From positions 1 through 29,643 of IMG/VR virus record IMGVR_UViG_3300035225_000014: DNA of 29,643 nucleotides; one strand, 5' to 3'. The DNA comes from a virus. The translations under genes and the position numbers were made by a program. Of this stretch, positions 3,047 through 28,278 are shown piece after piece. Under the pieces are notes generated by a model. The model was not told where the DNA came from. It ran no database searches and worked only from the letters and a program-made list of their open reading frames with translations. Each line of letters begins with the position of its first letter. Within the stretch, counting starts at the first letter, position 1.

Positions 3047-3262
3047 TTGGAATCAGAATCACTTTACGAATTATGGGAAACTTTAAAAAGTTATATTCCC
3101 GCTAAAGATAGAATAGAAGCAGGTGAAATGTTTATTAAACAATGTGACGACTTAGGAATGAGTACCGAAGAAATTGGAGAATTGATTGACGGTGATGAAG
3201 TCTTAGAAGTCGCATTGAATAGATTTTTTGATGAAGAAGATGATTATGATGATTGGGACTAA
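3047..3262 (+). CDS. Small acidic protein preceding UvsY
   Basis: The product is a 71-residue, highly acidic protein ending in EEDDYDDWD. I do not recognise a family. No ATG is available until residue 27, while TTG at 3047 is placed seven bases after AGGAG (3035-3039), so TTG is the likely initiator. The stop codon TAA (3260-3262) shares a base with the uvsY ATG, so the two genes are translationally coupled. The location between the recombinase and its mediator suggests a role in recombination or in setting UvsY levels. This is inference from position only. Confidence 0.7.
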   Translation: MESESLYELWETLKSYIPAKDRIEAGEMFIKQCDDLGMSTEEIGELIDGDEVLEVALNRFFDEEDDYDDWD

Positions 3263-6110: not shown

Positions 6111-7034
6111 ATGCCGTTTGACCAGAAAATAACTAGAAAAGATTTTGACGAGATAGTTCACGGAAGTGGACTTGTCGTAGATATCGATGTTGCTTGGAAT
6201 GATGCAAAAGAGCATATCTTGGTTTCGGCTGACTCTAATATTAAGTATAGCCCCACTAATAAGGCTCTAGGGTTATTTGAAAAGTGGTACAAGTCAGTTA
6301 AGCAAGGTAATCCAGATTACAATGGAGTGTATGGCGACCCATATTACATTACTGATGTATGGGCTTGTTGGAAAATGTACTCTAGGGATAGTGTAAAAGC
6401 ACTTGCTAGACCAAAAATGATTAACGAAATTAGTGTCATAGAGCATATGACAAATCATATAGGTGAAATAAAAACAGTAGTAGATGCTGGTTGTGGTATT
6501 GCTTATACAACAGGCCAACTTAAAGAAATGTTTCCAGATGCAAAAGTTACAGGAACTAATTTGCAAGGAACTTGGCAATATGGCTTTGGTAAGAAATTAG
6601 GTTTGTCTCATGGCTTTGACATGGAACCAGAAATCACTACACTAAAAGATGTTGATTTGATATTTGCTTCCGAATACTTTGAGCATTTCTATGAACCGAT
6701 TGCTCATTTAAAAGATATTTTGGATAATTGTAATCCTAAGTTTTTAGTTTGTGCAAACGGATTTACTGGTGATGCAATTGGTCATTTTGATTTTTATAGA
6801 GTTGATGATGATTTAGAAGAATCTGATAAACAATGGAATCTATTTTCTCAAAAAGGTGAACCTAAAGGGAATATTCAAACTGATAAAGAAACAAGTAAGA
6901 GATTTGGTAAATATCTAAAAAGCAGAGGATATACAAAATTAGATACTAACATTTTTAATAGTAGACCAAATATATGGCAAAAAGGTCCAGTTAATAAGCC
7001 AGCAAGTGAAAATTTTGAGGAACTTTTTGATTAA
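6111..7034 (+). CDS. Class I SAM-dependent methyltransferase-like protein
   Basis: The product is 307 residues long. The central part has a Rossmann methyltransferase motif I, VVDAGCGIAYTTG (DAGCG about residues 125-129), preceded by a hydrophobic strand and followed by a helix. An acidic loop segment FASEYFEHFYEP corresponds to the region around motif IV. The substrate cannot be read from sequence. The N-terminal 100 residues are aromatic-rich and may bind substrate. ATG 6111 follows AAAGGAAAC. The gene sits between nrdA and nrdB behind its own promoter, and its TAA overlaps the next ATG. Possible targets include a nucleotide, DNA, a glycan or a small molecule, and I cannot choose among them. 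Confidence 0.75.
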   Translation: MPFDQKITRKDFDEIVHGSGLVVDIDVAWNDAKEHILVSADSNIKYSPTNKALGLFEKWYKSVKQGNPDYNGVYGDPYYITDVWACWKMYSRDSVKALARPKMINEISVIEHMTNHIGEIKTVVDAGCGIAYTTGQLKEMFPDAKVTGTNLQGTWQYGFGKKLGLSHGFDMEPEITTLKDVDLIFASEYFEHFYEPIAHLKDILDNCNPKFLVCANGFTGDAIGHFDFYRVDDDLEESDKQWNLFSQKGEPKGNIQTDKETSKRFGKYLKSRGYTKLDTNIFNSRPNIWQKGPVNKPASENFEELFD

Positions 7035-10345: not shown

Positions 10346-10353
10346 ACTAAATA
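10346..10353 (+). promoter_or_regulatory. Possible late promoter, ACTAAATA
   Basis: ACTAAATA lies five bases before the ATG at 10359, directly after the upstream stop codon. It shares TAAATA with the late octamer and has the same distance to the ATG as the GATAAATA at 20911. No ribosome-binding site is present in the 13-base gap. The second base deviates from the consensus, so this is a weak call. Confidence 0.3.
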
Positions 10354-10358
10354 TTAAT

Positions 10359-11729
10359 ATGACAAATTATCCTTCAAAAACTTGGTGTACATATCCATTT
10401 TCGTCCTTAGTGTTACATAATAGTGGCACATATGGCCCATGTTGTACTGCTACTGAAATGGTGAGTACTGATTTACATGGCGATGAAATTGTTTTTAAAA
10501 TGCATGACCCAAGTGATACGAGACAGTTCAAACCCTATAGTATGACCGCGAGTGAGGCACTTAATAGTGAATTTATGAAAGACATTCGTCAGCAAATGAT
10601 GAACGGTAAAAAACCAACTGCGTGTAGTCGTTGTTGGCATGATGAAAGTATTGGAGTGAAAAGCAAACGTCAAGGCATGAATGAATTTTATTTAGATTCA
10701 CATAGTTCAGGAGTTCGTGATGGTGGATTTGATTATGATGTCGATGAAATGGTTAAAAATCCACAGATACGTTCATTAGATTTAAAGTTTGATAATAAAT
10801 GTAATTTACATTGTTTAATGTGTAGTAGTGGTAGCAGTGATATGTGGGTTCCGTTAGATAACAAAATGCATAAGTATCTTGCTTTACAAAATGTAAGTGA
10901 AGAAAAAGATTTAGATTTATATATTGATGATTCACATCGTCAATCATGGGTACCGGAAGAATTTCCTGAATCATTATTTGAAGAAATTAAATCATTAGTT
11001 CCACAATTACAAGAAATACAATGTACTGGCGGCGAACCTTTTATAAATTCACATTTTATTGAATTGTTGAAATATATAATTGAAACTGGTCACGCAGAAC
11101 ATATATCATTAGAAGTTACTACAAATGGTACTAAATTTGTCACTGAGGTTATGGAGTTATTAACACATTTTCGACACATACGATTTTTGATAAGTGTAGA
11201 TGGTACCAAAGGTACATATGACTATATTAGGACACCTTATCGTTATGATTTATTATTGAAACGATTGAAAACATTGGATGAATATTTCGTATCAGAAAGA
11301 ATTAAAGGTTGGGCTGAGATTAGTGCAGTAGCAATGTCGTATAATATGTTTGATTATCAAAACTTATCTACAATTATTGAAGATATGGAATATGAACATT
11401 TTGAAGTTGAGGGTAATGTAAACTTTTTTATGCATAATATGGATAATCCTTTACATATTAAATGGTTGCCTGATGAATTAATAAACGAAGCAATAGATTA
11501 TTATAAATCTATGCCAACAGCACAAGAAGAACATTTGAAACTAGTCATTTCACACTTTGAAGGATATGTAAAGAATAATCAGGTTGACAAAGAAACAAAA
11601 TTACATAATCAACGCCGAATGAAAAATTATACAGTATTAATGGATAAAATGCTCGATAGAGATTACCATGATTATCTTGATTCTCGTCTATGTAAATTTT
11701 TAGATACTGTTGATTGTGATGTTAAATGA
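10359..11729 (+). CDS. Twitch-type radical SAM protein
   Basis: This 456-residue protein has the radical SAM cluster motif C148-x3-C152-x2-C155 (CNLHCLMC), which binds a 4Fe-4S cluster and SAM to generate a 5'-deoxyadenosyl radical. TGGEPF near residue 225 is the typical GGE motif. An N-terminal Cys-rich part (C10, C28, C29, C89, C92) resembles a twitch/SPASM-type auxiliary cluster region, as in WCTYPF and ACSRCW. Family members occur in marine phages, but their substrates are not established to my knowledge. The gene follows an exported protein and a nucleotidyltransferase-cupin fusion, so glycan or peptide modification is possible. No ribosome-binding site precedes the ATG. Confidence 0.88.
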   Translation: MTNYPSKTWCTYPFSSLVLHNSGTYGPCCTATEMVSTDLHGDEIVFKMHDPSDTRQFKPYSMTASEALNSEFMKDIRQQMMNGKKPTACSRCWHDESIGVKSKRQGMNEFYLDSHSSGVRDGGFDYDVDEMVKNPQIRSLDLKFDNKCNLHCLMCSSGSSDMWVPLDNKMHKYLALQNVSEEKDLDLYIDDSHRQSWVPEEFPESLFEEIKSLVPQLQEIQCTGGEPFINSHFIELLKYIIETGHAEHISLEVTTNGTKFVTEVMELLTHFRHIRFLISVDGTKGTYDYIRTPYRYDLLLKRLKTLDEYFVSERIKGWAEISAVAMSYNMFDYQNLSTIIEDMEYEHFEVEGNVNFFMHNMDNPLHIKWLPDELINEAIDYYKSMPTAQEEHLKLVISHFEGYVKNNQVDKETKLHNQRRMKNYTVLMDKMLDRDYHDYLDSRLCKFLDTVDCDVK

Positions 11730-11737
11730 GATAAATA
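11730..11737 (+). promoter_or_regulatory. Late-promoter octamer GATAAATA
   Basis: The motif begins at the base after the radical SAM stop codon (TGA 11727-11729). It lies 75 bases before the next start codon, upstream of a sigma70 promoter, so the membrane-protein gene may be served by both early and late transcription. Confidence 0.45.
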
Positions 11738-11811: not shown

Positions 11812-12036
11812 ATGATAGAGTTAACTGATACATTTTACATGATATGGATTGCATGTGGAGTATGTATGTTTCTTTCTTATTTTATAGGTAAAACTGCAGG
11901 ATATAAAAAGATGCATTTACAGATAGCAACTTCATTAATTGATATAGAATTAGAACGTGCAAAAGTTCAGATAATGAAAGCCGAGATATCAAAAGTTCAA
12001 GATGAGTTAACACAAACAATCGAAGATAACAAGTAG
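11812..12036 (+). CDS. Small membrane-anchored coiled-coil protein
   Basis: The product is 74 residues long. A single hydrophobic segment at about residues 8-27 (FYMIWIACGVCMFLSYFIGK) is followed by a long helical, heptad-like part from about 35 to 72. That layout suggests a small inner-membrane protein with a cytoplasmic or periplasmic coiled coil. ATG follows AAAAGGAGTAATAG, a strong ribosome-binding site. It could be a holin-like or regulatory spanning protein, but charge and length do not decide this, and no lysis enzyme is visible beside it. Confidence 0.7.
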   Translation: MIELTDTFYMIWIACGVCMFLSYFIGKTAGYKKMHLQIATSLIDIELERAKVQIMKAEISKVQDELTQTIEDNK

Positions 12037-15364: not shown

Positions 15365-16810
15365 ATGAGCAAATGTACAATTATAATCAAGGACGAAGTA
15401 AACGTAAAGTTAGAAGGTCTTGACCCAGCAACACGCAGAAAGTGTAGTGATAAACTGAAATTTTTCTTACCACACGCCTTTCATATGCCTGCGTATAAAT
15501 TAGGTAGATGGGATGGCACAGTTCGTTTCTGTGATGTCGGTGGTAGAACTTTCTTAAATTTACTAGATGATGTATTGCCTGTAATCATTGAACAAGGCTA
15601 TGAAGTAGTGATTGATGATAGGCGTAAGAACGAAGAAATGGAATTTGAACTCGTTACCGAAGATTTTTGGGAAGGAGTTACTTGGCCTGAAGGACATATA
15701 CACGCAGGTGAACCGATACTATTAAGAGATTATCAAGTAGAAGTGATTAATCAGTTCATATCTGCCCCACAATGTCTTCAGGAGATAGCCACCGGTGCTG
15801 GTAAGACGATTATGACTGCGACAATGAGTAAGGTAGTAGAGAAGTATGGTAGGTCAATCGTTATCGTTCCAAACAAAGACTTAGTAAGACAAACAGAAGA
15901 AGATTATAATAATTGCGAATTAGATGTTGGCGTATATTTTGGAGATAAAAAGGACATAGGAAAGACTCACACGATTTGTACTTGGCAGAGTTTGAATTCA
16001 TTAATGAAGAAAACTAAGAAAGGTGAAGCAAACATCCAGGAATTTATCGAGGACGTATGTTGCGTTATTGTTGATGAAACACATCAAGCAAAAGCAGATG
16101 TGTTGAAAGATTTATTGACAAGTGTGTTTGCTAATGTGCCTATTCGGTGGGGATTGACTGGCACTATTCCAAAGAGTGATTGGGAATCTGCTAGTTTACG
16201 GAGTTCAATTGGTGATGTAGTAAACAAACTGTCAGCAAAAGAATTACAGGACCAGGGAATATTAGCAAATTGTCACGTTAATATTCTACAAACACAGGAG
16301 ACTGCGAGTTATACCAATTATCAAAATGAAATGACATACTTGCTTGAAGATAAAAAGAGATTAAAGTTTATTGCTAATAGAATTAAAAATATTTCTGTAA
16401 CTGGAAACACTCTTGTTCTAACGAATAGAATAAAAAACGGAAAAGAGTTACAAGAGTTAATTCCAGATGCTGAGTTTGTACAAGGTGCAATGAAGGTCGT
16501 GGATAGAAAGGATGCATACAATGACATAAACGAAGGAACAAATACAGTTACTATTGCTACTTATGGAGTGGCTTCTGTTGGAATTAACATTCCTCGTATA
16601 TTTAATTTGGTATTATTAGAACCAGGCAAATCGTTTGTCAGAGTTATTCAGTCGATTGGACGTGGAGTTCGAATTGCGAAAGATAAAGATTTTGTGCAAA
16701 TATGGGATGTGACCAGTAGATGTAAGTATTCAAAAAGACACTTGACACAACGAAAGAAATACTATAAAGAGGCTTCATATCCATTTACAATAGAAAAAAT
16801 AGAATATTAA
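15365..16810 (+). CDS. uvsW: UvsW ATP-dependent helicase
   Basis: This 481-residue SF2 helicase matches T4 UvsW, which unwinds branched DNA and R-loops. It helps switch phage replication from origin-dependent to recombination-dependent mode. Walker A is ATGAGKT at 142-148, the DExH-type box is DETH at 237-240, motif III is GLTGT, and motif VI is IQSIGRGVR near the C-terminus. The N-terminal 100 residues fit the UvsW DNA-binding domain (MPAYKLGRWDGTVRF). ATG 15365 is chosen because the upstream in-frame extension crosses the promoter and has no ribosome-binding site. A weak GAGAAAAACG precedes the ATG. Confidence 0.92.
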   Translation: MSKCTIIIKDEVNVKLEGLDPATRRKCSDKLKFFLPHAFHMPAYKLGRWDGTVRFCDVGGRTFLNLLDDVLPVIIEQGYEVVIDDRRKNEEMEFELVTEDFWEGVTWPEGHIHAGEPILLRDYQVEVINQFISAPQCLQEIATGAGKTIMTATMSKVVEKYGRSIVIVPNKDLVRQTEEDYNNCELDVGVYFGDKKDIGKTHTICTWQSLNSLMKKTKKGEANIQEFIEDVCCVIVDETHQAKADVLKDLLTSVFANVPIRWGLTGTIPKSDWESASLRSSIGDVVNKLSAKELQDQGILANCHVNILQTQETASYTNYQNEMTYLLEDKKRLKFIANRIKNISVTGNTLVLTNRIKNGKELQELIPDAEFVQGAMKVVDRKDAYNDINEGTNTVTIATYGVASVGINIPRIFNLVLLEPGKSFVRVIQSIGRGVRIAKDKDFVQIWDVTSRCKYSKRHLTQRKKYYKEASYPFTIEKIEY

Positions 16811-18869: not shown

Positions 18870-19140
18870 TTTAGATTTAGATTTAGATTATGTAACAGGC
18901 TCATATAATGATGTCACAGTGACGTTAGATTCTAATGTGTGGGGCGACCCCGAAGAAGATAGCGACCAAGATGCATTCAAATCAATCAATGATAGATTGT
19001 CAACGATTGAAAATCGTTTATCAATTCTTGTACCAGATAAAGAGATGCTAGAGAAGTATGAAGTATTACAGGACATGTACAAGCAGTATAAGGCCGCAGA
19101 GGCTCTATTAGATGGTCCAGACCCGGAGCAAATGATATGA
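18856..19140 (+). CDS. Acidic hypothetical protein
   Basis: The product is 94 residues long. The start is Asp-rich (NPDDLDLDLDY). A helical coiled-coil-like part from about 42 to 85 (INDRLSTIENRLSIL, then KYEVLQDMYKQYKAAEALL) suggests oligomerisation. ATG 18856 follows GTGGAG at a good distance, inside the end of the preceding gene. Its stop overlaps the next ATG as ATGA. I do not recognise a family. Confidence 0.68.
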   Translation: MNPDDLDLDLDYVTGSYNDVTVTLDSNVWGDPEEDSDQDAFKSINDRLSTIENRLSILVPDKEMLEKYEVLQDMYKQYKAAEALLDGPDPEQMI

Positions 19141-19625: not shown

Positions 19626-19930
19626 TAAGACGAAATCCCAAAAGAACACAAGAAAGACTATCGAGGCTTCGTTCTATTGTCAAGCCCAAGAAACCTAAAA
19701 GACGATTTCCATCAGATTTTAATAACGAGGAATACTTAGAATGGACTTCTATTTCTTCTGACAATGTAGATTACGAAGTAACTCCATTAGTAAAAGGAGC
19801 AGGTCGTCTGGGAGAATTAGTAGATTGGTGTGATGATAATTGTAGCAAATTATATATTATAGGAAAAGCCAATAAAATATATTTTGAAGATGAAAATGAT
19901 GCGGCAATGTTCGCGTTGGTATGGAAATGA
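19613..19930 (+). CDS. Hypothetical basic protein
   Basis: The product is 105 residues long. It starts inside the end of the phosphoribosyltransferase gene, with GGTGGAG about five bases upstream. The first 40 residues are very basic (LIRRNPKRTQERLSRLRSIV, then KPKKPKRR). The C-terminal half looks alpha/beta (LGELVDWCDDNCSKLYIIG, then KIYFEDENDAAMFALVWK), resembling the end of the 71-residue protein at 17307. No family recognised. The end overlaps the next gene as ATGA if that starts at 19927. Confidence 0.68.
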   Translation: MGELIRRNPKRTQERLSRLRSIVKPKKPKRRFPSDFNNEEYLEWTSISSDNVDYEVTPLVKGAGRLGELVDWCDDNCSKLYIIGKANKIYFEDENDAAMFALVWK

Positions 19931-20520
19931 ATATAGTAAAAACTGATATTGACATTGATGTGATTGATAGGGAATCGTTATTGGTTCACTTCAAACATAT
20001 CCCTGCGATTATTAAAAAGAAAGATGATACATATGACAAGCATAATACTGGTGTGTATTTTCAACCTATTCCGTGTGACCAGTTAACTGGATTATCATCA
20101 ATTGATTACAAGGAAGCAGAAGACCGTGGATATTTCAAGTTAGACTTTCTTAACAATAGTTTGTATGAAGGTGTGCGAGATGAAGACCACCTCGACAGTC
20201 TGACAACTCAAGAACCGATATGGGATTTGTTACAACATGAGGATGTTGTTAAAAATCTAGCACATGTTCATAATCATATTAGTGTATTGAATGTTTTAAA
20301 ACCAACAAACATTGTAGAATTAGCAGAAGTTCTGGCAATCATTCGACCAGCAAAAAGACATCTCTTAAACGAGAGTAAATCAAAAATTAAAAAAGAAGTT
20401 TGGGTGAAACCAACCGATGGTTCTTATTATTTTAAAAAAGCACATGCGATTGCATATGCAGTAAGTATTGTTGTACAACTTAATCTATTTTGCGAACAAG
20501 TTGAACAGAACGCCGTTTAA
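19927..20520 (+). CDS. DnaE-like (polymerase III finger-like) protein
   Basis: The product is 197 residues long. A segment near residues 94-140 (IWDLLQHEDVVKNLAHVHNH, then LNVLKPTNIVELAEVLAIIRP) resembles the finger region of bacterial DNA polymerase III alpha (C-family), where the palm leads into a conserved Arg-Pro. Short relatives occur in marine T4-like phages. The active-site palm Asp residues of a full polymerase are absent, so it cannot be an independent polymerase. It may be a remnant or a binding partner. ATG 19927 forms an ATGA overlap with the previous stop, and ATG 19921 is the other choice. Its 3' end overlaps the minus-strand gene by 41 bases. Confidence 0.6.
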   Translation: MNIVKTDIDIDVIDRESLLVHFKHIPAIIKKKDDTYDKHNTGVYFQPIPCDQLTGLSSIDYKEAEDRGYFKLDFLNNSLYEGVRDEDHLDSLTTQEPIWDLLQHEDVVKNLAHVHNHISVLNVLKPTNIVELAEVLAIIRPAKRHLLNESKSKIKKEVWVKPTDGSYYFKKAHAIAYAVSIVVQLNLFCEQVEQNAV

Positions 20521-20872
20521 TTCTCTTTTGAATAATATTCATCAAACTCGTTTCTGGTCCCCATAGCACTTCACAATCTTTTGAATTCATATTTAGAATA
20601 CATCCTCTGAATGGCTCTATCTGTGTTTTTAGAAATAGATTTATAGGAATTAATCTGTTCGATTCCCACCACCATTGTTCACCAAGTTCTATGAAATGTT
20701 TTCTTGCTTCCGCATCATTAATCATTTCAAAGTTATACATTGATGTTATTGTGGAGTCGCTGTTGATGATGATTCCAAGGTATTCTGTATATTCTTTTTT
20801 GTTTCCATATTTAACACAGGAAAAGAAAGGATAGTTATCTTGTAGCCATTGTATCTTATCTTCGTCTATCAT
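20480..20872 (-). CDS. Hypothetical protein, the only minus-strand gene
   Basis: The product is 130 residues long, on the opposite strand to everything else. It fills the 400-base gap on the plus strand, which carries no other plausible gene. The composition is protein-like, with a Trp-rich core (LGEQWWWESNRLIPINLF) and a basic C-terminus (KRIKRRSVQLVRKID). No family is recognised. The minus-strand octamer GATAAATA (20886 to 20879) ends six bases before ATG 20872, and no ribosome-binding site separates them, which predicts a leaderless late message. The 3' end converges with the DnaE-like gene, so antisense interference is possible. Confidence 0.75.
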   Translation of the reverse strand: MIDEDKIQWLQDNYPFFSCVKYGNKKEYTEYLGIIINSDSTITSMYNFEMINDAEARKHFIELGEQWWWESNRLIPINLFLKTQIEPFRGCILNMNSKDCEVLWGPETSLMNIIQKRIKRRSVQLVRKID

Positions 20873-20878
20873 AGAACA

Positions 20879-20886
20879 TATTTATC
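20879..20886 (-). promoter_or_regulatory. Late promoter, minus strand
   Basis: The minus strand reads GATAAATA from 20886 to 20879. The distance to ATG 20872 is six bases. It faces away from the plus-strand octamer at 20911, with 24 bases between. Confidence 0.6.
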
Positions 20887-20910
20887 ATTCCAAGAATTCA
20901 TCCCCTGGAA

Positions 20911-20918
20911 GATAAATA
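20911..20918 (+). promoter_or_regulatory. Late promoter, plus strand
   Basis: GATAAATA lies five bases before ATG 20924. The predicted start coincides with or lies next to the ATG, so the message would have no leader. It forms a divergent pair with the minus-strand octamer at 20879-20886. Confidence 0.65.
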
Positions 20919-20923
20919 CTACT

Positions 20924-21727
20924 ATGATAAATTTTAACTTATACCAATACCAACGAGAAATAGAAGTTGTTGTCTTGGACGCTGACAACAATACAACTAT
21001 GACTCAATACCTGGGGAATATGCCAATGTATGATAACGCACACAAACTACATAAGGGTATCGACAATACTCTTAGATTTAAATTTAGGGATACAGATAGA
21101 AAATCTATAGACCTTACAAATAAAACTGTTATATGGAAAATGTATGACAGAGAATCGAGAGAAAATGTTCTGTTTCGATATTTGACAGTAACGAATGCAA
21201 CTAAAGGGATGGCAATGTTAGAAATTCCAACGTCAGACACTATCTTACTTCCAGAAGGATTTTATCAGTTCGCAATGTACACAGTCGAAGACGGCGTAGA
21301 GCAAATAATCTACACAGACACAAATGACAATGCTCATGGTGTTCTTGAAGTATTGGATGATGTTTATCCTGAGTTCGAAAACTCACAGGAAACAGCAACA
21401 TTCTTTGATGATGGTGCTAGATTTATCTCAACAGTATTTGATGGTGCTGGTAACACTATTAAATCAAAATCAATACATACATTTGCTGTATATTATAACG
21501 GATTTACAGGAGTTATAAAAATAGAAGGCGACTTGAGTGAGCAACCTAGTACAGCAGATAGCGATTGGTTTGATTTAACTCCAAGACTTATGTATGACCC
21601 AGACATCACAATCAATAACGAAACTGGAGTTCAAGGATATGTCGTACAAGCCAACGTTAATTGGATGAGAGTTACACATCTTAATACAGCAACTGGCACT
21701 GTAGATAAAATTATGATGAGAAACTAA
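20924..21727 (+). CDS. Probable virion protein (tail-fibre / BppU-like)
   Basis: The product is 267 residues long and beta-rich. The part from about 45 to 140 (RFKFRDTDRKSIDLTNKTVI, then GMAMLEIPTSD and GFYQFAMYTVEDG) follows the pattern of the BppU-like N-terminal domain of phage baseplate and receptor-binding proteins: a strand, LT, a linker, then a strand and G-Y/F-Y/Q. The C-terminal half is a second beta domain ending in VNWMRVTHLNTATGTVDKIM. This fits a tail or baseplate protein, although the exact place in the virion is unknown. It has a late promoter directly before the ATG and no ribosome-binding site. An in-frame extension upstream would cross the promoter. Confidence 0.65.
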   Translation: MINFNLYQYQREIEVVVLDADNNTTMTQYLGNMPMYDNAHKLHKGIDNTLRFKFRDTDRKSIDLTNKTVIWKMYDRESRENVLFRYLTVTNATKGMAMLEIPTSDTILLPEGFYQFAMYTVEDGVEQIIYTDTNDNAHGVLEVLDDVYPEFENSQETATFFDDGARFISTVFDGAGNTIKSKSIHTFAVYYNGFTGVIKIEGDLSEQPSTADSDWFDLTPRLMYDPDITINNETGVQGYVVQANVNWMRVTHLNTATGTVDKIMMRN

Positions 21728-23548: not shown

Positions 23549-24970
23549 ATGTCAGAAGTCAAAAATTATTCCGCAGATATGCAGAAATTATTCGTTCAGT
23601 TTATGCTGACCGACCCCCAGTTATTCACTAGAATCATGGGAATTGTGGATGACCGTCACTTTGACAGAGAAGTTCGAGATGTTGTAAAATTTCTTATTTC
23701 GTATAGTAATGAATATCAGACTATGCCATCAGTTGAGCAGATAAAAGCAGAAACTGGGCAGGTAATAGAGTTACTTGATAGTATAGAACAACATAGTGAC
23801 TGGTTTATAGATGAGTTTGAAACATTTTGCAGGCACAAGGCAATCGAACGAGCAATCGTTAATAGTGCAGATTTACTTGAAGAAGGTAAATATGGCGAAG
23901 TAGAAACAACAATCAAAGATGCAGTTCAAATAGGATTGACGAGGTCATTGGGTACAGATTATTTTGATGACCCAAGAAAAAGACTTGAACATTTAAAGGA
24001 GAACAATGGACAAGTTACTACAGGTTGGAAAGATTTAGATGATAAACTTTATGGTGGTATTAATCGAGGTGAAGTAACTATTTTCGCTGGTGGTTCGGGT
24101 TCAGGCAAATCATTATTCATACAGAATTTGTGTTTGAATTGGGTACAGATGGGAATGAATGTCGTTTATGTTACCTTAGAATTATCGGAAGAGTTGTCGG
24201 CAATGCGTATTGACGCAATGGTAACTGACCGTAGCACCAGACGTATTTTTAAAGAACTCGATGATGTTGAATTACAAGTTAGAACAGTTGGTAAGAAATC
24301 TGGAATGCTTAGAATTAAATATATGTCATCAGGTTCAACGATTAATGATATACGTTCGTACTTGAAAGAACTTCAAATCGTTACAGGCAAAGTAGTTGAT
24401 TGTGTATGTATCGATTATCTAGACCTTGTCATGCCAGCGACTAAGAAGGTTAATCCTGGCGATTTGTTTATTAAAGATAAGTATGTCACAGAAGAAATGC
24501 GTAACTTTTCTATGGAAACACAGACAGTATTTGTTACAGCATCACAATTAAATCGTTCAGCAGTAGAAGAAATTGAGTTTGACCACTCTCATATTGCTGG
24601 TGGTATCTCTAAAATTCAAACTGCTGACAATGTTATCGGCATCTTTACAAGTAACGCAATGAGAGAACGAGGCCAATATCAACTCCAATTATTGAAAACA
24701 CGAAGTTCAAGTGGTGTTGGTTCTAAAATAAATCTAGTATTTGATAGAGATAGTCTAAGAATTAGTGATTCAGATTTAGATGATGACGATTTAGCAGTCG
24801 GAACTCAAGATTCACAAACTTCAAAGGTGATGGATACATTAAAAAGAAAAAGTACCATAACAGACTCTATTGATACTACATCTGCTATTCCACCAGAGAA
24901 ATCAGAGTCAGCCATCAACCTTCGGGCTATGGTAAAGTCAAAAAAGTCCAATCCATTTGATGATAATTGA
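23549..24970 (+). CDS. gp41: gp41-like replicative DNA helicase
   Basis: This 473-residue DnaB-family hexameric helicase unwinds DNA ahead of the fork and works with gp61 primase. The N-terminal domain (1-140) is helical. The RecA-like core has Walker A GGSGSGKS at 181-188 and Walker B VDCVCIDYLDLV, with TASQLNRSAVEE and GGISKIQTADNVIGI as the later conserved motifs. The C-terminal 60 residues are a low-complexity, acidic and Ser/Thr-rich tail ending in KSNPFDDN, as in other gp41 proteins. ATG 23549 is preceded by TAGAGAACTAA, a weak ribosome-binding site. Confidence 0.94.
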   Translation: MSEVKNYSADMQKLFVQFMLTDPQLFTRIMGIVDDRHFDREVRDVVKFLISYSNEYQTMPSVEQIKAETGQVIELLDSIEQHSDWFIDEFETFCRHKAIERAIVNSADLLEEGKYGEVETTIKDAVQIGLTRSLGTDYFDDPRKRLEHLKENNGQVTTGWKDLDDKLYGGINRGEVTIFAGGSGSGKSLFIQNLCLNWVQMGMNVVYVTLELSEELSAMRIDAMVTDRSTRRIFKELDDVELQVRTVGKKSGMLRIKYMSSGSTINDIRSYLKELQIVTGKVVDCVCIDYLDLVMPATKKVNPGDLFIKDKYVTEEMRNFSMETQTVFVTASQLNRSAVEEIEFDHSHIAGGISKIQTADNVIGIFTSNAMRERGQYQLQLLKTRSSSGVGSKINLVFDRDSLRISDSDLDDDDLAVGTQDSQTSKVMDTLKRKSTITDSIDTTSAIPPEKSESAINLRAMVKSKKSNPFDDN

Positions 24971-24976
24971 TAAATA
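24969..24976 (+). promoter_or_regulatory. Late-promoter octamer GATAAATA
   Basis: The octamer overlaps the stop codon of gp41 (TGA 24968-24970). It lies 37 bases before the ATG at 25014 and would start the late operon for the ligase-fold protein and its two small upstream genes. Confidence 0.6.
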
Positions 24977-26882: not shown

Positions 26883-26890
26883 GATAAATA
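26883..26890 (+). promoter_or_regulatory. Late-promoter octamer GATAAATA
   Basis: It begins at the base after the stop codon of the 49-residue gene and lies 30 bases before ATG 26921, which has GGGGAGAG as ribosome-binding site. It would drive the DUF6356-like gene and the one after it. Confidence 0.6.
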
Positions 26891-27967: not shown

Positions 27968-27975
27968 GATAAATA
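27968..27975 (+). promoter_or_regulatory. Late-promoter octamer GATAAATA, first of tandem pair
   Basis: It is preceded by GAA, giving GAAGATAAATA. The same eleven bases recur 21 bases downstream. Either could give a leader of about 30-50 bases for ATG 28030. Confidence 0.55.
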
Positions 27976-27988
27976 ACATACTGAAGAA

Positions 27989-27996
27989 GATAAATA
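27989..27996 (+). promoter_or_regulatory. Late-promoter octamer GATAAATA, second of tandem pair
   Basis: The second copy of GAAGATAAATA lies 21 bases (two helical turns) after the first, so both sites face the same side of the DNA. It is followed by CAATTAG, 33 bases before ATG 28030. Confidence 0.6.
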
Positions 27997-28029: not shown

Positions 28030-28278
28030 ATGGCTGATAAAGAACCAAGATTAGCACATCTAGAAGCAGAGAGTTTGGAAACTCACGTGGCTGTATGCTA
28101 CGAGAGATACCATCACTTTAATAAGTCATTGCTAGATATTAATACCAAGATTGACAAGAACGAAAAAGAGATGGATAAAGGCTTTACTGAAGTAAAGAGA
28201 ATGTTGATATGGACAGCATCAACTTTGTTTTCTACTATGTTGATTGCCATATTTGCACAGATGTTTAACCTCTTATAA
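28030..28278 (+). CDS. Coiled-coil protein with C-terminal membrane anchor
   Basis: The product is 82 residues long. Residues 10-58 are helical with a heptad-like pattern, and the last 22 residues form a hydrophobic membrane segment (IWTASTLFSTMLIAIFAQMF). The layout resembles XhlA-type haemolysin/holin-accessory proteins, which act at the membrane in host lysis. No lysin is visible nearby, so the assignment rests on architecture. A GAGGAG ribosome-binding site precedes ATG 28030. Confidence 0.65.
   Translation: MADKEPRLAHLEAESLETHVAVCYERYHHFNKSLLDINTKIDKNEKEMDKGFTEVKRMLIWTASTLFSTMLIAIFAQMFNLL

Follow-up and report, generated by a model that had tools for sequence, protein, structure and literature searches.

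Divergent T4-type late promoters placed five and six bases from their start codons, and a predicted class of leaderless late genes in jumbo phages and T4-like pelagi- and methylophages

The region between two divergent genes at 20870-20926 of the window (the whole 29,643-nucleotide stretch analysed, IMG/VR record IMGVR_UViG_3300035225_000014) raises the question of where transcription starts when a late promoter leaves only a few bases before the start codon. A first-pass annotation had proposed that two opposite-strand octamers drive the two genes at this locus, with no ribosome-binding site and with mRNAs beginning at or next to the ATG. The sequence agreed with this layout. The plus-strand T4-type late promoter octamer GATAAATA (20911-20918; predicted -13 to -6) was followed by the 5-base spacer CTACT (20919-20923) and by the ATG (20924-20926) of a 267-aa virion structural protein gene (20924..21727, plus strand), predicted to be leaderless with +1 at the A of the ATG (20924). 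On the minus strand, the same octamer (20886-20879) was followed by the 6-base spacer TGTTCT (20878-20873) and by the ATG (20872-20870) of a 130-aa gene (20480..20872) of phrog_11637, of unknown function, with a predicted +1 at 20872 or 20873 and thus a predicted leader of 0-1 nt. The octamers were separated by 24 bp (20887-20910), and neither the 5-base nor the 6-base spacer contained a Shine-Dalgarno (SD) sequence. At its other end (20480-20520), the minus-strand gene overlapped tail to tail, by 41 bases, the 3' end of a plus-strand polymerase-fragment gene (19921-20520).

The 267-aa protein matched phrog_14467 (virion structural), and its viral matches included an annotated structural protein of Serratia phage BF. 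A Pfam search with this protein gave no match, its AlphaFold model had low confidence over the N-terminal half (mean pLDDT 58), and PDB matches were set aside as not convincing. The protein was left as virion structural, from the PHROG match and from the mass spectrometry note on its orthologue in the cultured jumbo phage PA5oct, gp262, which is noted as detected by ESI-MS/MS.

The T4 late promoter octamer is numbered from -13 (PMC2988020); an octamer at -13 to -6 leaves five bases before +1, which is then the sixth base downstream. Leadered late promoters had A at that position in 66% of 132 cases in the jumbo-phage group and in 74% of 27 cases in the pelagi- and methylophages, and the phages' own preference for A and the T4 numbering gave the same answer for the predicted +1. 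The base directly after the octamer in leadered promoters was clade-specific (C in 58% in the jumbo group, G in 44% in pelagi- and methylophages). Bacterial promoters usually start in a context of pyrimidine at -1 and purine at +1. A pyrimidine preceded the ATG in 29/32 fused genes, in which the octamer stands 5 bases before the start codon, of the jumbo group and in 19/20 of the pelagi- and methylophages (91-95%), vs. 43-45% at SD-led starts (Fisher 4e-8 and 7e-6). With +1 at the sixth base, a 5-base spacer puts the predicted start on the A of AUG, and the 6-base spacer of the minus-strand gene puts it on the A or on the base before, as the first-pass annotation had anticipated.

T4-type late promoters have a TATAAATA-like 8-bp box at the -10 position and lack a -35 element. 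Such a box was found at both window sites as GATAAATA, octamers preceded many genes in relatives, and a gp55-family late sigma factor (phrog_234) was found in G001-G004, PA5oct, Atu_ph07 and Phosso, with gp55-family sigma genes also in pelagi- and methylophages. The search for phrog_234 found none in the 146-kb G005 contig, and the 29.6-kb window fragment is not expected to show it. The analogy with T4 drawn in the first-pass annotation to place the start thus held up on the sigma factor of the relatives, on the octamer numbering and on the preference for A. T4, HTVC008M and Mosig each had a match to the T4-type clamp (gp45-type, phrog_223); the search gave none in G001, G003 and PA5oct, where a diverged clamp might have escaped it. 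Activation of late transcription may therefore differ from that of T4, through an activator that is different or strongly diverged.

Counts of GATAAATA in the window (7 sites vs. 3.7 expected) were only modestly above chance and by themselves uninformative; they were dropped as evidence, the non-random part being the position relative to the ATG. The sites other than the divergent pair were all on the plus strand and outside gene cores. Two were leadered late promoters, at 24969..24976 and 26883..26890, with the ATG 37 and 30 bases downstream, respectively, and an SD-like sequence in each case. A tandem pair (27968..27996, the second octamer at 27989; 21 bases apart) lay 54 and 33 bases before the ATG at 28030, which had an SD. 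The octamer at 11730-11737 directly followed the stop of a radical SAM gene, about 75 bases before the ATG at 11812, and had a start codon at neither usual distance. With octamers 30-54 bases from an ATG with SD beside the fused pair, the window holds two arrangements, leadered and fused. A third fused candidate was the radical SAM/SPASM gene itself (10346..11729, plus strand), which read ACTAAATA-TTAAT-ATG, with the ATG at 10359; its orthologue in G009 read AATAAATA-GTGGT-ATG. Radical SAM genes recurred in the predicted leaderless class of G001 and G009.

Conservation of the locus was followed by an IMG/VR scan with the 267-aa protein, which gave 80 loci (66-100% identity) that collapsed to 44 distinct upstream sequences. 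Exact 5-base spacing between octamer and ATG was kept before the plus-strand gene in 43/44 of them, with 9 different spacer sequences; the exception, L009, had an 8-base spacer. For the minus-strand gene, an octamer (GATAAATA, CATAAATA, GCTAAATA or TATAAATA) lay 5-8 bases from the ATG in 42/44, spacers that would allow leaders of 0-3 nt. The distance between the two octamers varied from 15 to 25 bp, and the octamers overlapped in two relatives; the constrained unit is thus the octamer with its start codon. L003 and L057-L060 had another neighbour on the minus side, yet kept the plus-strand octamer and its 5 bases.

The spacing was also kept in PA5oct, in which gp262 read TATAAATA-CGTGT-ATG at its annotated start (ATG at 144985 of NC_071039) and in which gene order was the same (polymerase piece, minus-strand gene, structural gene, primase, helicase). 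A minus-strand gene was found at the equivalent place in PA5oct, Atu_ph07 and Phosso, and that of PA5oct was leadered. The orthologues in Atu_ph07 and Phosso retained divergent octamers but had leaders of at least about 30 nt; the fused form thus characterizes only part of this phage group.

Divergent fused pairs were found elsewhere. At 3129/3132 of G001 (L115, 3125-3136) the divergent octamers overlapped by 4 bp, and at 18916/18943 of HTVC008M they were adjacent (TATTTATA|TCTAAATA, 18922-18937), each octamer in both pairs being 5 bases from its ATG. About 51 bp separate the two predicted starts in the window, less than two polymerase footprints, which suggests that its two promoters alternate and probably exclude each other.

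Genome-wide counts were made in two 342-kb relatives (G001 and G003), smaller relatives, PA5oct and control phages, with contigs pieced together; ATGs opening at least 50 codons were tallied by their distance from an upstream ATAAATA, and permuted 7-mers served as the control. At a spacer of 5 bases, counts exceeded expectation in G001 (11 vs. 0.30), G003 (8 vs. 0.47), G010 (4 vs. 0.15) and PA5oct (4 vs. 0.38; 2 in a stricter gene-call test), as well as in the T4-like pelagiphage HTVC008M (9 vs. 0.12). Of the T4-like pelagi-/methylophages, Mosig, with 6 vs. 0.34, also showed an excess, as did Melnitz, with 3 vs. 0.04. ATAAATA-N5-ATG was absent or rare in T4, KVP40, RB49 and the cyanophages (0 in T4, KVP40, RB49 and S-PM2; 1 vs. 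0.12 in P-SSM2). Pooled over the jumbo group, there were 35 cases at spacer 5 and 0-4 at each other spacer from 0 to 15, and the variant CTAAATA also peaked at spacer 5. ATAAATA ranked top of all 16,384 7-mers at spacer 5, above SD words, in G001, G003, HTVC008M, Mosig and the pooled set, third in PA5oct and fourth in Melnitz. The single locus of the first-pass annotation is one case of a class found across the genome.

The predicted ATG was the annotated start in those fused genes of HTVC008M, Mosig and Melnitz that were compared with the deposited annotation, which include genes for tape measure, DNA end protector, head closure, tail tube cap, baseplate wedge and CsgF. The DNA end protector (T4 gp2) was fused and so annotated in both HTVC008M and Mosig; Melnitz has a likely counterpart, recorded as hypothetical, that was also fused. 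HTVC008M gp025 and gp027 belong to the predicted leaderless genes, and in this phage primary 5' ends are predicted at 6280, 7562, 18943, 19456, 31132 and 49760 on the plus strand and at 16007 and 18916 on the minus strand. In the jumbo phages, the fused class comprised the virion structural protein, several radical SAM/SPASM proteins, an HNH endonuclease, a ClpP-like protease, a Zeta/AAA-type kinase and unknowns. Fused genes made up only about 6-50% of octamer-driven genes, most late genes of these phages having leaders of 20-40 nt with SD. An N-terminal motif, M[KR]xx[ED][ILF], was enriched in the predicted leaderless genes of G001, G003, G010 and PA5oct (8/40 vs. 16/1299 SD-led ATGs), a pattern chosen after looking; it resembles T4 capsid-targeting peptides, and some products may for that reason be packaged in the head.

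Taken with the conserved spacing, these counts support a new class of T4-type late genes, predicted to be leaderless, in which the octamer is locked 5 bases from the AUG in a conserved subset. Judged from sequence, this jumbo-phage group has the class, and so, separately, do T4-like pelagi- and methylophages. The locus at 20870-20926 is best read as a pair of divergent gp55-type late promoters from which transcription would start on the A of the start codon, or no more than one base away from it, to give leaderless mRNAs, with a probability of about 85%. The phage sigma factor would bring RNA polymerase to the octamers late in infection, leaderless mRNAs for the virion structural protein (plus strand) and for the small conserved protein (minus strand) would be made, and ribosomes would begin translation, with no SD, at the AUG that forms the 5' end. 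As the predicted start leaves no SD in the mRNA, we infer initiation at the 5'-terminal AUG as the natural reading.

An addition to this explanation would make phage-encoded bS21 a switch that replaces host bS21 on the 30S subunit late in infection and favours 5'-terminal AUGs over SD-led host mRNAs. It is considered tentatively, and the joint reading, in which the gp55-type sigma factor makes the leaderless subset and phage bS21 in host ribosomes shifts initiation from SD-led to 5'-terminal AUGs, is rather doubtful. Among genomes with the class, bS21 (PF01165) was present in G001, G003, G005, G009, PA5oct, HTVC008M, Mosig and Melnitz; it was absent from eight T4-type controls (T4, KVP40, P-SSM2, S-PM2, P-SSM4, P-HM1, RB49 and Aeh1), in which the class was missing or had 1-2 cases. 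It was found in all large or cultured genomes with the class and not in the fragments G006, G010 and G011; G010, a fragmentary contig with the class, counts against the link. Summed by hand, fused starts were 41/257 of the octamer-driven starts in genomes with bS21 vs. 4/178 in those without. An excess of fused starts in phages with bS21, predicted beforehand, held in Mosig and Melnitz, with the counts given above, but not in SCTP-2, which has bS21 and no excess (10 vs. 8 in the control); Vibrio 2.275.O, with bS21 and no ATAAATA-N5-ATG match, was uninformative for the prediction. Having held in 2/2 informative pelagi-/methylophages and failed in SCTP-2, the link to bS21 is only a secondary hypothesis. 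As the genomes represent about two lineages, shared descent confounds the association, which is a lead, not a result.

In published work, bS21 of HTVC008M enters Escherichia coli ribosomes and translation of a reporter falls to about 5%, a defect that its authors ascribe to possible incompatibility or missing factors (PMC6375957). In Bacteroidetes phages, bS21 expression accompanies that of late structural genes (PMC9723584). A role of bS21 in the leaderless class is speculative; if true, it would provide a specific function for phage bS21 and a reason for the class to exist.

An unlikely alternative is dual use of the locus, by which the octamer would give a leaderless late mRNA and earlier read-through transcripts would use an upstream GGAAG or GGGAG as a weak, distant SD. 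In the window, GGAAG at 20907-20911 lies 12 bases from the ATG at 20924 and upstream of the predicted +1, and would therefore be outside the late mRNA. GGAAG or GGGAG recurred directly before the plus-strand octamer in many relatives, as dual use would have it, but was missing in L051, L057-L060 and L065 and in other predicted leaderless genes, and its spacing of about 12 nt from the ATG is long for an SD.

Less likely again is that the octamers are late promoters from which transcription starts further upstream or downstream, leaving either a short ordinary leader or an mRNA that begins inside the gene and uses a downstream start codon. Minus-strand spacers, which vary from 5 to 8, would fit with this, but the A at the sixth base of leadered promoters and the pyrimidine before the ATG locate the predicted +1 at the A. 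A true start of the plus-strand gene further downstream was rejected on N-terminal conservation: from 20924 on, the sequence is protein-coding and conserved, with synonymous changes among relatives, and the next in-frame ATG (20999) has no SD. The annotated starts of HTVC008M, Mosig and Melnitz also agreed where compared.

That the ATAAATA before the ATG arose by chance, or as a side effect of AT-rich DNA between genes and of the TAA stops of upstream genes, could draw on the modest excess of octamers in the window but was rejected as extremely improbable, as permuted 7-mers and one-mismatch variants gave no peak at 5 bases, where only ATAAATA and CTAAATA peaked, the peak lay at a single exact spacer and was neither spread nor in steps of 3, divergent pairs have no upstream gene as a source of stop codons, and T4, KVP40, RB49 and S-PM2 showed no excess.

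The reading of the locus as divergent leaderless late promoters bears on promoters that are among the best studied in phages and whose genes are normally assumed to be SD-leadered. If the genes are leaderless, part of late expression would take a different route of initiation, both in phages that infect abundant marine bacteria and in cultured jumbo phages of Pseudomonas; the window itself comes from a marine jumbo phage, and the class extends to its relatives. The class can be tested in cultured phages, offers a concrete hypothesis for the phage-carried ribosomal protein bS21, and may aid gene calling, in that an octamer plus 5 bases would mark true starts.

T4-type late promoters are classical and leaderless phage mRNAs are known; their combination is the new part and was not found in the literature searched. 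The search, which covered late promoters, T4 and T4-like phages and bS21/jumbo phages but not most subscription papers, turned up no T4-type late genes described as leaderless. Most phages with the class encode bS21, in which they resemble known bS21-encoding phages (HTVC008M, Melnitz and freshwater Bacteroidetes phages), and the accessible parts of the papers on such phages do not mention a leaderless architecture. The late promoters of T4 (the gp55/gp33/gp45 system) are alike in the octamer, (N)ATAAATA at the -10 position, and in the phage-encoded gp55-family sigma factor. They differ in having leaders of about 12-36 nt, most with SD, and no ATAAATA 5 bases from the ATG, in contrast to the class predicted here to have zero leader, and T4 has a clamp of a type for which the search of the jumbo genomes gave no match.

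Leaderless mRNAs are known in general, lambda cI and others being examples; the genes described here would share with them a 5'-terminal AUG and the lack of an SD, and differ in forming a conserved genome-wide class with one promoter family and divergent pairs. The Thermus phage phiYS40 uses the sigma factor and RNA polymerase of its host, and most of its middle and late mRNAs are leaderless; leaderless middle and late mRNAs also occur in Thermus phage P23-45. The likeness to phiYS40 lies in a lytic phage with non-early mRNAs that lack leaders, and the difference in the T4-type sigma factor and in the restriction to about 6-50% of octamer-driven genes. Changes in initiation factors have been proposed to favour translation of the leaderless middle and late mRNAs of phiYS40 (PMC3594737), and the principle thus has a precedent.
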